DNA of 64,000 nucleotides from Microcystis aeruginosa NIES-4325 (GTDB lineage Bacteria; Cyanobacteriota; Cyanobacteriia; Cyanobacteriales; Microcystaceae), in contig NZ_BJKP01000001.1 of assembly GCF_008974145.1 (NCBI RefSeq), positions 1 through 64,000 on the forward strand. Direction: 5' to 3'. Every line of letters begins with the position of its first letter. Positions within the stretch are counted from its first letter, which is position 1. The notes under the pieces were generated by a model. That model worked only from the letters and a program-made list of their open reading frames with translations, had not been told where the DNA came from and did no database searches. A program made the position numbers and the translations under genes. Positions 39,178 to 43,570 of the stretch are shown here, in pieces.

Positions 39178-39606
39178 ATGGAATCAATGCAACCGACCGA
39201 GACCAAAAATCCGATTAGAACGGATTTACCTGGGTCTCTGAGCAAACCCAGCAGCAGCACCGAACAGATTTGGTCTGAATATGTAGAACCAGTTTGGGAT
39301 TCGGTGATGTCCTATCTGGCTAATGTCCCTGATTATATTGGTAGTTTCTTCTCTGGATACAAAAAACCTTTAATCGTTCTAGGGGCAATTTTAGCGAGTT
39401 TTGTTACCGTGAAAGTTACCCTAGCGGTCTTAGATGCGATCGATGATATTCCTCTCCTTGCTCCTATCCTACAATTAGTTGGAATCGTTTACACTGGTTG
39501 GTTTGTCTGGCGCTATCTGCTCAAGGATCAAAATCGCCGCGAGTTATTAGCCGAAATTGATGCACTAAAAGCGCAAGTTTTTGGCAGTCACAATAACCCT
39601 TTATAG
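39178..39606 (+). CDS. CAAD-domain thylakoid membrane protein
   Basis: A 142-residue protein with a disordered Ser/Thr/Pro N-terminus (about 1-30), an amphipathic segment (SYLANVPDYIGSFFSGYKKP), two membrane helices (LIVLGAILASFVTVKVTLAVL and APILQLVGIVYTGWFVWRYLL) and a short cytoplasmic tail LKDQNRRELLAEIDALKAQV. This is the CAAD domain first described as an insertion in cyanobacterial aminoacyl-tRNA synthetases and, in plants, as CURT1 thylakoid-curvature proteins. A role in membrane shaping is inferred. It is monocistronic, ending in a clear terminator. Confidence 0.85.
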   Translation: MESMQPTETKNPIRTDLPGSLSKPSSSTEQIWSEYVEPVWDSVMSYLANVPDYIGSFFSGYKKPLIVLGAILASFVTVKVTLAVLDAIDDIPLLAPILQLVGIVYTGWFVWRYLLKDQNRRELLAEIDALKAQVFGSHNNPL

Positions 39607-39986: not shown

Positions 39987-41159
39987 CTAAGAGCTAATTT
40001 CACGACCGAGGTAGGCAAGCTTCTCTAGAACAGATTGAAGCAGAGATCGCCGCTGCTCTACCACAATATCTAAGTTAGCCAACATATACTTTACGTCTTT
40101 GTAGGCATTGTCCAGCAAGACAAGTAATAATTCGCGATCGCTGGCAATATCTTTGGGGGATGGGTCACAAGTTGGTTGAGGTAATAAGTCCGCTGGTGGA
40201 GAAGGAAGGGATGGCGATCGCTCGGACTCTAGCTGTTGAATCGTTTGTTGTAAATTTTCAATCACCCCATACATTTCCATCGGGTCAAAAACCCTTAACA
40301 GACTGGTTTGTGTGACAATACCCAACCCCCGACCCCAGTTCCAAGAAACCACCAAACGCCCCACCCGCCGTTTTTGCATTTCCTGATGGGCTGTCCACAG
40401 GGAATCCTCGGGGCTGAGGAGAAATAAGGGCGTACTCATCACCGTCTGGGCCTTAGTTTTGTGCAGATCGATTTGAACTGCTTGAAATTGGACAAGATCT
40501 CGCTCTGTCACAATACCAACGGGGTAGTCATTATCTTCGGAATTTCTCTGGGTGATCACCACACAACTAACACGATGTTCCGCCATTAACTGTGCCAATT
40601 GCAGGACTGTGGCGGTGAGTGGGGCCTGTACCACTTGACTGGTCATCACATCCGATACGCGACGAAACCGCAACAGATTGGCCGGACGCAAAATCTGGCG
40701 AATACTTTCATGGGAGATCACCCCGATTAAGTGTCCTTGGTCATCGACAATCGGCAAATGGCGAATGCGGTAGCGCCGAAACAAAAACAGGGCAGCAAAA
40801 ATGTCTTGAGCAGATTGCTGGGGCAACGTGATCAGGGGATGCACCATCACATCGGCAACGGTTGTCTCGGTCAGGTTAATTCCTTGGGCGGTGAGTCGCA
40901 CCACATCCCGTTCTGTCAAAATTCCTAATAACTCTTGCCCTTGCACCACCAGCAGACAGCTAACACGCACCTCTCCGGCCGGAGCAGCTAGAGGGGATAG
41001 GTCATCGGTGAGCAAACACAGACGACTATGGGCCTGGCCGATCATAGCGATCGCATCTGCCAGGGAAGTGGTTGGCGGCACCGTCAAGGGGTGGCGATTG
41101 ATCGCCTTTTCCAGATCGGGGGCCCAACTCAGAGGTGTATCGAGGGACATCAGCACCAT
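39987..41159 (-). CDS. Multi-CBS-domain protein
   Basis: About 390 residues with four CBS motifs, i.e. two Bateman modules: HPLTVPPTTSLADAIAMI, ILTERDVVRLTAQGINL, VMVHPLITLPQQSAQDIF with LIGVISHESI, VMTSQVVQAPLTATVLQLA with IVTERDLVQFQAVQ, and VMSTPLFLLSPEDSLWTAHQ with GIVTQTSLLRV. It ends in a coiled-coil and helical region (VIENLQQTIQQLESER, then RELLLVLLDNAYKDVKYMLANL). In many cyanobacteria the same CBS block heads PAS/GGDEF sensors; here no output domain follows. CBS pairs bind adenine nucleotides, so energy sensing is inferred. An upstream in-frame start at 41204 is less likely than the ATG at 41159 or 41150. Confidence 0.8.
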   Translation of the reverse strand: MVLMSLDTPLSWAPDLEKAINRHPLTVPPTTSLADAIAMIGQAHSRLCLLTDDLSPLAAPAGEVRVSCLLVVQGQELLGILTERDVVRLTAQGINLTETTVADVMVHPLITLPQQSAQDIFAALFLFRRYRIRHLPIVDDQGHLIGVISHESIRQILRPANLLRFRRVSDVMTSQVVQAPLTATVLQLAQLMAEHRVSCVVITQRNSEDNDYPVGIVTERDLVQFQAVQIDLHKTKAQTVMSTPLFLLSPEDSLWTAHQEMQKRRVGRLVVSWNWGRGLGIVTQTSLLRVFDPMEMYGVIENLQQTIQQLESERSPSLPSPPADLLPQPTCDPSPKDIASDRELLLVLLDNAYKDVKYMLANLDIVVEQRRSLLQSVLEKLAYLGREISS

Positions 41160-41397
41160 CCTGCAATCACAAAGGCCAAGATAGACAGAACAGCCACCGG
41201 GCAAAGAACCCAGACTCTCAGAGTTGCCAAAACCCGTTCTAAAACTATCTCAAAGTGTAGCGTCATTTAACTTTTTCCTAAAAGATGTAACGTTTTATTA
41301 CAATTTTTATTAAACTCGTAAAGATTTTAGACCCACTTCGGTGTATCATAGAGGGATGTAACAGGTTAAACCCTGAAACTTTTTATTTAGGGGTCAT

Positions 41398-41805
41398 TCA
41401 GCCTCTAATGGTTTTAGGGGCTGCATCACCAGACGCTGGGGTGAGTACTTCCGGGTTCTGGTCGGCCTGAAGGGTTACTCCGGAAATTCTGGACACCTTT
41501 CCATAAAGTCGATCCAGCACCCGCTTTACGGAAATACGCTGCCATGGTAGACCGCGTTTGGTGGTGTAGCCCTGTTCATTAAGCCAATCGGCGATCTTCT
41601 GCAAGGATTTCCCTGATTTGTGATGACGGCGAATCAGTTCAATGACCCGGCACTCTTCCGGATCATCCACTAATTCCCCATCGATCGATCGTTGTCCAAA
41701 GGCAGGAGAGCCGTAGCCCGCATAACCACCGTTGCTTGCTTTTGCTTGTCTGCCTTGTTCTAGCCGCTCCCAGGCAGATAAATCGTTGGAAGGGGTCGCT
41801 GTCAT
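41398..41805 (-). CDS. Recombinase-domain protein lacking the resolvase catalytic domain
   Basis: About 135 residues. The core GGYAGYGSPAFGQRSIDGELVDDPEECRVIELIRRHH...KSLQKIADWLNEQGYTTKRG...WQRISVKRVLDRL matches the Recombinase (PF07508-like) DNA-binding region that follows the catalytic domain in large serine recombinases. The N-terminal resolvase domain with its Ser nucleophile is absent, and the start MTATPSNDLSAWERLEQGRQAKA is not like one. Small stand-alone proteins of this type occur in cyanobacteria; a DNA-binding rather than recombination role is likely (inference). A frame start at 41838 exists, but the ATG at 41805 looks better. It is divergent from the thioredoxin gene cluster. Confidence 0.75.
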   Translation of the reverse strand: MTATPSNDLSAWERLEQGRQAKASNGGYAGYGSPAFGQRSIDGELVDDPEECRVIELIRRHHKSGKSLQKIADWLNEQGYTTKRGLPWQRISVKRVLDRLYGKVSRISGVTLQADQNPEVLTPASGDAAPKTIRG

Positions 41806-41885
41806 AGGGTATCTAAATGCAATAACTTGCAAAACCATATTATCGCAACTTGACGTCGCAAATTTGTTTTGATTGGGAGCAGCCG

Positions 41886-42017
41886 ATGACGACTTACAAA
41901 TTAAAACCCCTGCATGAGCAGGGACTAGATATCACCATCGATGTCTGGGACGACCAAACTATAGACGATACCCCCGGGAGGCGGACATTGACTAATGCCA
42001 TTTTGCTTTACTCATAG
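41886..42017 (+). CDS. Small ORF (43 aa), possibly a truncated gene
   Basis: ATG at 41886 opens MTTYKLKPLHEQGLDITIDV and ends ILLYS at 42015-42017. The composition looks coding (acidic, DVWDDQTIDDTPG). After the stop, another frame near 42080-42105 reads FLDEERVKAGFVL before a stop, which may be a decayed continuation. I do not recognise a family. It lies between the recombinase-domain gene (divergent) and thioredoxin; the rest of the 332-bp gap 41839-42170 shows no other gene. Confidence 0.4.
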   Translation: MTTYKLKPLHEQGLDITIDVWDDQTIDDTPGRRTLTNAILLYS

Positions 42018-42170
42018 TCCTAGACCTCAACCCTTTTCAAAGAAGAAAGTTTCGGCGATAAGGCCAAGCATTTTTAGATGAGGAGCGGGTCAAGGCTGGA
42101 TTTGTATTGTAAAACGCAGCGATCAGAGAATTTGTCCTAAGTTACACAAAATCAATTTGGAGATATAAAC

Positions 42171-42494
42171 ATGGGTACGGCTACATTTATTCAAGATGAA
42201 ACTGAATTTGATTCCCTCTTAAAGAGTGAATCACTGTTGGTGGTAGATTGCACGGCAACCTGGTGTGGACCTTGCAAACTGGTGGCGCCGTTGATCGATC
42301 GATTGGCCGATGACTATCGCGATCGCGCCAAAGTCTTCAAACTTGACCTGGACAGTAACAAACCCGTGGCCAAACGCTTTGGGATTAGAAGTATTCCTGC
42401 TGTCATGGTATTTAAACAGGGGAAATTGATAGAAACATTAGTTGGGGTTAAACCCTATGAAGAATTTACGGCAGCCGTAGAACGACAATTATAG
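42171..42494 (+). CDS. trxA: Thioredoxin
   Basis: A 107-residue thioredoxin with the classical active site WCGPCK (W31, C32, C35), the cis-proline loop SIPAVMVFK and FKLDLDSNKPVAKRFGIR. It is a soluble disulfide reductase. GGAG is placed 8 bp before the ATG. The next genes on the same strand are a zinc-ribbon protein and a CBS-CP12 fusion; the CP12 disulfides are known thioredoxin targets in the Calvin cycle, so this neighbourhood suggests a functional partnership (inference). The cyanobacterial trx subtype (m, x, y or a) is not assigned. Confidence 0.93.
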   Translation: MGTATFIQDETEFDSLLKSESLLVVDCTATWCGPCKLVAPLIDRLADDYRDRAKVFKLDLDSNKPVAKRFGIRSIPAVMVFKQGKLIETLVGVKPYEEFTAAVERQL

Positions 42495-42580
42495 TCTTCC
42501 ACCGTGAACAAACACTCTGGGCAAACGTCCGAAGTTGACCCTTTCCTTCTCACATCACTATTCAATTTTGAGGTATGGCG

Positions 42581-42901
42581 ATGAACAAGCTTATAGAAAT
42601 CCGGTGTCCCAACTGTGGTAGCGTAGCTCAACGGCTCTTGAGCGATCGCCTGCCCGCAGGATATAAGTGTCCAGCCCGGCAGGTTGCTCAGACGGAATGC
42701 CCAGTGTGTGATTATTTCATCGCCATGTGTTGGCAAAATGGTGCTGTGCTGGAAGCCTATGCTCCTGGCATTCAGGGGAACACAGCTGCGGCCATGCCGC
42801 CTCAGCCCCAACCAGCGATCGCCCATTGGTCTTTGTCATCTGTGTTCAAAGTGGCACTCAGCCCACAAGAGTCTAGGAAATTGCTATCGGGGCAACCCTA
42901 G
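42581..42901 (+). CDS. Small zinc-ribbon-like protein
   Basis: A 106-residue protein opening MNKLIEIRCPNCGSVAQR, then YKCPARQ and TECPVCDYFIAMCW: CxxC pairs at about residues 9-12 and 40-43 plus single cysteines, a likely zinc ribbon. The remainder has VLEAYAPGIQGNTAAAM and an Ala/Pro/Gln linker. An ATG at 42575 also exists, but GAGG (42570-42573) is at a proper 7-nt spacing only from the ATG at 42581. It lies between thioredoxin and the CBS-CP12 gene, 86 bp and 51 bp away. Function unknown; related to redox or RNA/DNA binding only by context. Confidence 0.75.
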   Translation: MNKLIEIRCPNCGSVAQRLLSDRLPAGYKCPARQVAQTECPVCDYFIAMCWQNGAVLEAYAPGIQGNTAAAMPPQPQPAIAHWSLSSVFKVALSPQESRKLLSGQP

Positions 42902-42952
42902 TCAACTTTTGCATTTATACCAGTTCTTTCATTAAAAAAAACCAAACCATAT

Positions 42953-43570
42953 ATGCTGCAAGCTCAAGAAATTATGACCCAAAACGTTGTCACCATTCGT
43001 GGTTCGGCAACGGTTGCCGATGCTGTGAAATTGATGAAAGAAAAAAAACTGCGGGGTTTGATTGTCGAACCGCGCCATGAACAGGATCCTTATGGAATTG
43101 TCACCGAAACCGACATTGTTTACAAAGTGGCGGCCTTTGGCCACGATCCTAAAACTATGCGGGTCTATGAAATTATGGCCAAGCCCTGTGTGGTCGTCAA
43201 TCCTGAACTGGGGGTGGAATATGTGGCTCGGTTATTTGCTCAAACCCGCATTCGCCGCGCACCGGTGATTCAGGGTAAAACTTTGCTGGGTATTATTTCT
43301 GTCAGTGATATTCTCTTCAAGAGCGATTTTGTTGAAAAGCCCAAGCGGTTGTTCATTGAAGATGAAATTGAAGCAGCCCGGGAAGACGCGCGGGCAATTT
43401 GTGCAGCCAAGGGTGAGACCTCTCCAGACTGCGCCGCGGCCTGGGATGTGGTGGAGGAACTCCAGGCGGAAGCCTCTCATCAACGGGTCAAAAAACAGGG
43501 GAGTAACTCACTCCAGTCCTACTGCGAGGCTAATCCCGATGCTTTAGAGTGCCGCATTTATGAGGATTAA
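42953..43570 (+). CDS. CBS-CP12 fusion protein
   Basis: A 205-residue fusion. The N-terminal Bateman module has two CBS motifs (IMTQNVVTIRGSATVADAV with YGIVTETDIVYKV, and IMAKPCVVVNPELGVEYVA with LLGIISVSDI). The C-terminal CP12 domain (about 135-205) is complete: Cys150 and Cys160 flank AAKGETSPD, AWDVVEEL (163-170) is the PRK-binding motif, and Cys191 and Cys200 flank EANPDALE before RIYED, the GAPDH-binding end. CP12 couples GAPDH and phosphoribulokinase in the dark; CBS domains sense adenine nucleotides. CBS-CP12 fusions are a known cyanobacterial family, studied in Microcystis. Cotranscription with thioredoxin is likely. Confidence 0.92.
   Translation: MLQAQEIMTQNVVTIRGSATVADAVKLMKEKKLRGLIVEPRHEQDPYGIVTETDIVYKVAAFGHDPKTMRVYEIMAKPCVVVNPELGVEYVARLFAQTRIRRAPVIQGKTLLGIISVSDILFKSDFVEKPKRLFIEDEIEAAREDARAICAAKGETSPDCAAAWDVVEELQAEASHQRVKKQGSNSLQSYCEANPDALECRIYED

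Follow-up and report, generated by a model that had tools for sequence, protein, structure and literature searches.

The object of this study is a 64,000-nucleotide stretch of Microcystis aeruginosa NIES-4325 (contig NZ_BJKP01000001.1, positions 1 to 64,000 of the forward strand; called the window below), which is part of a 3.88-Mb Microcystis assembly. Two genes lie on its minus strand, one coding for a DNA-binding (recombinase) domain of the kind found in large serine recombinases, here on its own (REC, 41398-41805) and the other for a stand-alone protein with four CBS domains (CBS4, 39987-41150). They are divergent from a plus-strand group coding for a thioredoxin, a zinc-ribbon protein and a CBS-CP12 fusion, and this cassette recurs in distant cyanobacteria. 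The gap between CBS4 and REC contains a 14-bp element which, in relatives, is often present as two direct copies. The thioredoxin/CBS-CP12 core is known; the REC-CBS4 pair and its element are the new part. That REC and CBS4 constitute an autoregulated switch, sensing adenylates or energy state beside a redox/energy operon, is in our judgement about an even proposition.

Conservation of the REC-CBS4 pair and of its neighbours

The five open reading frames (ORFs) described in an initial annotation of this DNA were all recovered with unchanged coordinates and strands, the divergent arrangement included (ORF list, sequence, Pfam). Their conservation was examined in a first set of 36 named loci and in 319 genomes of the phylum, in which a solo REC was defined by an E-value of at most 2.5e-52 and a frame of 117-177 residues. 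Such a gene was found in 18 of the 319 genomes, 15 of which carry CBS-CP12 within about 4 kb. With matches at E <= 1e-48, solo REC occurred in 73 of 388 genomes of an order sample and in 75 of 388 genomes of a class sample; both overlap the phylum sample, and short frames with weaker E-values (G251, G282) were excluded. The flanks of REC were taken for most solo-REC genomes, giving 136 loci and, once nine duplicates were removed, 127 distinct loci. A locus was taken as well flanked when the sequence extended for more than 2.5 kb beyond REC towards CBS4 and for more than 3.5 kb the other way; there were 98 of these.

The order CBS4(-), REC(-), thioredoxin(+), optional zinc ribbon and CBS-CP12(+) is common to six Microcystis contigs and eight other loci (L010-L016, L027); no zinc-ribbon match was found in L011 and L012, though the order is otherwise kept. 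In the well-flanked loci, the partners near REC were CBS4 (81), thioredoxin (67), CBS-CP12 (56), the zinc ribbon (51), ferredoxin (42, counting decayed copies such as that of the window) and adenylate kinase (20), and either CBS4 or thioredoxin stood beside REC in 85 of the 98. CBS-CP12 genes reportedly often cluster with trxA. Throughout the 127 distinct loci, 106 of 108 CBS4 matches were on the strand and side of REC, and orientation relative to REC was kept for thioredoxin (85 of 91 matches), ferredoxin (60 of 60) and adenylate kinase (28 of 29). Since order and orientation are fixed in most of these loci, the linkage of the five genes is far beyond chance. The neighbours that would have varied randomly, had the proposed grouping been fortuitous, did not do so for most genes, because the linkage recurs in distant cyanobacteria with nearly fixed order and orientation.

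REC matches the Pfam Recombinase family PF07508 (32.4 bits, cut-off 21.1) and PHROG 95, an integrase (E 9e-18), and no Resolvase catalytic domain was found in the window protein by Pfam at E <= 0.1. The top 11 Foldseek rows for its model are all large serine recombinases, most of them in complex with DNA, and VIA-align rows likewise support a recombinase DNA-binding domain. REC in the 127 distinct loci thus corresponds to the DNA-binding part of a large serine recombinase, standing alone. It shares this domain with the integrases of Bxb1, Listeria and phiC31 (PF07508, PHROG, fold) but differs from them in being a solo protein of 105-150 residues without catalytic domain. Purifying selection acts on it, the ratio of nonsynonymous to synonymous substitution rates (dN/dS) being 0.05-0.30 in eight pairs. 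The most likely start is at 41805 (135 residues), since in the sister strain L179 a stop codon interrupts the longer, 146-residue frame. The initial annotation had seen a resolvase-tail gene here; the recombinase domain holds, but the pairing of REC with CBS4, the element pair and a ferredoxin remnant had been missed.

The window CBS4 comprises 387 residues, with five Pfam CBS stretches. Beside REC, CBS4 is a stand-alone protein (99 uncut frames, 320-524 residues, median 401). A CBS4-like match at E <= 1e-50 was also present in 46 of 80 REC-less genomes, and all the matches listed there lie in frames of at least 472 residues. Thirty CBS4-like proteins extracted from REC-less genomes measured 482-917 residues, and in four of these long proteins, read by eye, the CBS part is continued by histidine-kinase or GGDEF sequence; the frame sizes with and without REC touch at 472-524 residues. 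Because CBS4-like modules of REC-less genomes lie in these longer frames, it is the stand-alone four-CBS sensor that goes with REC. Cyanobacterial histidine kinases and GGDEF proteins share the CBS4 module with up to 58% identity; in the cassette, in contrast, it is separate and adjoins REC.

The 14-bp element between CBS4 and REC

In the window, the element TGTTACATCCCTCT was located by matrix scan upstream of CBS4 (41350-41363, minus strand), and this copy is the sole match without mismatch to YGTWACATCYCTCT in the genome. A -10-like TATGAT directly follows it (41345-41350, minus strand); its place is conserved in pairs spaced by 71 bp, and it may act as a promoter box. A weak second copy, CGTTACATCTTTTA, is found 71 bp downstream of the first (41279-41292, minus strand), with a score of 11.0 against 23.5 for copy 1.

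The element emerged from a scan of CBS4-REC gaps, in which GATGTTAC occurred in 22 of 40 gaps compared with a shuffled maximum of 10. With TGTWACATCYCTCT, at least 10 of 14 matches on one strand were obtained in 88 of 104 gaps (16 of 104 when shuffled), and at least 11 of 14 in 73 gaps (one when shuffled). A matrix was built from the 88 sites and scanned over the 127 loci. It gave 153 strong matches in 109 loci, and 66 same-strand pairs with copies 70-73 bp apart in 63 loci. No opposite-strand pair at this spacing was found in the 127 loci, and one reversed and three column-shuffled matrices gave 3-8 matches and no pair at 70-73 bp. In aligned pairs, a -10-like TATNAT comes after copy 1, and the second copy falls inside the probable leader.

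The place of the element also varies together with gene arrangement. It precedes REC in six loci (L220, L221, L225, L230, L232, L235) in which CBS4 is encoded on the same strand as REC and the intervening gap is without element. It lies upstream of PPK2 in all eight loci with a close PPK2 (at least 83% identity), and upstream of phosphoribulokinase (PRK) in L228 only, as a pair 73 bp apart. In G742, where REC is located elsewhere, it stands between a detached CBS4 and the thioredoxin/CBS-CP12 genes. At the genome level, 14 of the 65 genomes with REC had a strict pair, against 0 in the reversed control; the genome of the window is not among the 14. Of 80 REC-less genomes, one had it, which equals the reversed-control rate (1). 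Because the REC-less genomes also showed no stand-alone CBS4, the pair is tied to the REC-CBS4 unit and not to REC alone.

Furthermore, co-variation between REC and the element was observed in the 88 loci that provide both a site and a REC sequence. Base 2 of the element is T in nine loci and G in 79. REC residue R101 is replaced by proline in exactly the nine T loci, and is arginine (76) or lysine (3) in the 79 G loci, with zero exceptions. R101 is residue 90 from the likely REC start and opens a predicted helix (90-101). This pattern is what a lost arginine-guanine contact would look like.

A putative switch and the alternatives

To account for these data, we propose that the locus may be a two-part cassette that moves horizontally among cyanobacteria. 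The plus-strand half would be an effector operon (thioredoxin, zinc ribbon, CBS-CP12, with ferredoxin and/or adenylate kinase added in relatives), which would tune PRK by redox state and adenosine monophosphate (AMP), as published for the M. aeruginosa CBS-CP12. The minus-strand half would be the switch, in which REC, a serine-integrase DNA-binding domain without catalytic domain, would bind the 14-bp element at the promoter and leader of CBS4, where two direct copies spaced by 70-73 bp are often present. CBS4, a kind of sensor otherwise fused to kinases or cyclases, would sense adenylates and alter the grip of REC on DNA. In this way the pair would set its own level and, directly or indirectly, that of the head-to-head operon. 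Gene content, linkage, domain identities, selection, and the conservation and spacing of the element are established by the data; DNA binding, the ligand, a contact between REC and CBS4, the sign of the regulation and any control of the thioredoxin operon are inferred.

A number of observations weigh against this proposal. Foldseek gave weak E-values for REC (best 5e-3), parts of its model are of low confidence, and REC is found without any of its six partners in 11 of the 98 well-flanked loci. Of the loci scanned, 88 had served to train the matrix, second copies not being in the training set, and a strong copy is missing in 18 of the 127 loci. In the window itself, the second copy is weak, and the matrix scan revealed no strong copy on the thioredoxin side, so that direct control of the thioredoxin operon is unsupported. 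As for the co-variation, Q80 (Q80P) splits like R101, D84 scores equally, and variable C-terminal columns of REC have higher mutual information with other bases of the element. In addition, all nine P101/T loci belong to one family (f5), and the co-change of R101P and G2T is for this reason probably one event.

It is conceivable, if unlikely, that the element is bound by another regulator, perhaps a global light/redox response regulator, REC being a DNA-binding neighbour with another role. The GTTACAT of the element appears to resemble one half of HLR1, the site of RpaB, and the lack of a strong copy on the thioredoxin side of the window would fit such a regulator. The second HLR1 half is, however, absent in aligned element pairs. 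The strict pair also follows REC across genomes (14 of 65 with REC, 1 of 80 without), although this comparison does not separate REC from CBS4, and the co-variation of REC with base 2 speaks against a foreign binder too.

REC might otherwise assist in site-specific recombination or be left over from it, the repeats being att- or res-like and the cassette still moved by a full recombinase in trans. The derivation of REC from integrases and its patchy distribution are in favour of this, as is the tree of 99 CBS4 proteins. There, the Microcystis copies group first with that of G743, which belongs to another order (support 0.97), then with L011, L010 and other f28 genomes, and stand apart from their own family; the cassette has probably moved between distant cyanobacteria. 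Nevertheless, the genome of the window yields a single REC match and no full-length relative at E <= 1e-3. The pair, moreover, sits at a promoter-like place, and other loci have it before PPK2 or PRK; it does not frame the cassette, the ends of which are not mapped. We regard this explanation as improbable. Little probability is likewise given to the element acting as RNA, its copies being part of the CBS4 messenger leader or of an attenuator: the second copy does lie in the probable leader, near the start codon in several loci, but the first precedes the -10-like box, and is therefore probably not transcribed, and no Rfam match was found at E <= 1. Finally, it is very improbable that ordinary clustering around thioredoxin and CBS-CP12, on which the published work bears, carries REC and CBS4 as mere passengers, given that the two occur together without other partners in 10 of 98 loci and that REC is under purifying selection.

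The REC-CBS4 switch also admits a broader formulation, to which we give somewhat less than even weight. Solo DNA-binding domains of serine integrases would be a so far unrecognised family of transcription regulators in cyanobacteria, forming a split one-component system with a detached four-CBS adenylate sensor and reading tandem direct repeats spaced by 70-73 bp. They would travel as a cassette which, through CBS-CP12, couples the control of PRK to redox state (ferredoxin, thioredoxin) and to adenylate charge (adenylate kinase, PPK2). The reuse of a mobile-element DNA-binding domain as a regulator, proposed here for REC, has a likeness in transcription factors derived from mobile elements; the part of PMC8987985 concerned names Xre and RHH proteins and the inverting recombinase Hin, a solo serine-integrase domain being unnamed there. 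If true, a regulator would be named beside the structurally solved CBS-CP12, and REC would be a clear case of an integrase domain turned metabolic switch. The control of carbon fixation by redox state and energy charge in cyanobacteria, bloom formers included, would become directly testable with one small protein, one 14-bp element, one putative sensor and a few target genes.

Effector genes and other features of the locus

The window CBS-CP12 (42953-43570, plus strand) carries both CP12 cysteine pairs and an AWDVVEE motif, matches Pfam CBS (two stretches) and CP12 above cut-off, and aligns over its full length (residues 1-205, E 3e-131) with PDB entries 5nmu, 5npl and 5nvd, in line with the earlier remark that CBS-CP12 fusions are known. 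It is 98-100% identical to the proteins of six Microcystis contigs; a second type (about 65-71% identical) is located elsewhere, without cassette genes. For the M. aeruginosa protein, a passage of PMC9406205 presents light induction, a hexamer, AMP binding and an effect on the activation of PRK by thioredoxin. The likeness with the CBS-CP12/trxA cluster of this species (Hackenberg et al. 2018, PNAS), as far as it is described, covers the 205 residues of CBS-CP12 and the adjoining thioredoxin, and the review passages concerned (PMC9406205, PMC9514657) are silent on REC, CBS4 and the element, as well as on the zinc ribbon, ferredoxin, adenylate kinase and PPK2. The redox/energy theme put forward in the initial annotation had an already published core, but it is plausible: the cassettes of relatives also include genes for ferredoxin, adenylate kinase, PPK2 and, in one case, PRK, which fits such a theme.

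Variants of CBS-CP12 were also seen. By rough pattern counts, tandem CBS genes split CP12 in L010, L012, L013, L103, L104, L106 and others, where proteins of about 150 residues keep the CP12 C-terminal tail only; a 185-residue partner in Nostocaceae keeps the AWD motif and has lost the CP12 tail. In Woeseiaceae metagenome-assembled genomes (L031-L035), CBS-pair proteins are 38-43% identical to the CBS part, the CP12 part being unmatched.

The thioredoxin (42171-42494, plus strand) has a WCGPC active site, matches Pfam Thioredoxin and TIGR01068 above cut-off, and is 37% identical to an m-type-like copy elsewhere in the genome. Thioredoxin-like proteins adjoin REC and CBS4 in L138, L147, L149 and L172; the two whose sequences were read, those of L138 and L172, are without the CxxC pair, and the former still matches Pfam Thioredoxin.

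Between REC and thioredoxin, the gap at 41839-42170 holds a decayed ferredoxin (41886-42140, plus strand), made of an N-terminal part and a C-terminal scrap and missing the iron-sulphur cysteine region; a 55-residue ORF at 41850-42017 is this remnant. It aligns only to residues 1-28 and 63-77 of the L010 ferredoxin, a full Pfam Fer2 protein. Alignments in the window and in six further Microcystis loci searched cover the N-terminal part and no more than a scrap near the C-terminus. Among the first loci read, seven (L010, L012-L016, L027) have an intact ferredoxin in this gap, and L104-L110 have adenylate kinase there (Pfam ADK for L104); L103 has both, farther down the operon. Between two Microcystis remnants, dN/dS was 0.88 (43 codons, few changes), and it was 0.02 in each of two intact-ferredoxin pairs. 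L009 (8586-9212) has an insert within the remnant region, by which its gap exceeds that of sister strains by about 350 bp.

The zinc-ribbon protein (42575-42901, plus strand) possesses two CxxC knuckles. Its Pfam match is below cut-off, and a confident beta-rich fold is predicted over about half of its length. Four cysteines are invariant in 24 of 24 relatives and two further ones are lost in Nostocaceae. Some zinc-ribbon match was obtained in 85 of 319 genomes, the strong cassette type (E below 1e-23) in 14 only, and a shorter paralogue exists outside the cassette; 10 of the 16 paralogue loci read have a neighbour that we take to be rlmN-like. Within the five-gene group, which is linked as a whole, the zinc ribbon is an optional member (51 of 98 loci); as a guess, it could be a partner of thioredoxin or CBS-CP12. 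In the genome of the window, about 12 kb separate the short paralogue from the second CBS-CP12, both being on the same contig (G000:C10:88754-101296).

CBS4 most likely starts at 41150, with an ATG that shares one base (TGATG) with the stop codon of a 38-residue ORF (41150-41266, minus strand), a possible leader peptide. A counterpart of this ORF exists at the same place in L010, L184 and L186, different ORFs are found in L012 and L013, and none was found at the matching place in L183. Near REC and CBS4, a gene for a CAAD-domain (membrane) protein lies at 39178-39606; it is otherwise arranged in three Nostocales-like genomes (L101, L102, L177). In one genome (L137, G370), kaiC-, kaiB- and kaiA-like genes, named by eye, are situated at +765 to +4128 from REC, on the same strand as REC and CBS4 and directly upstream of them.

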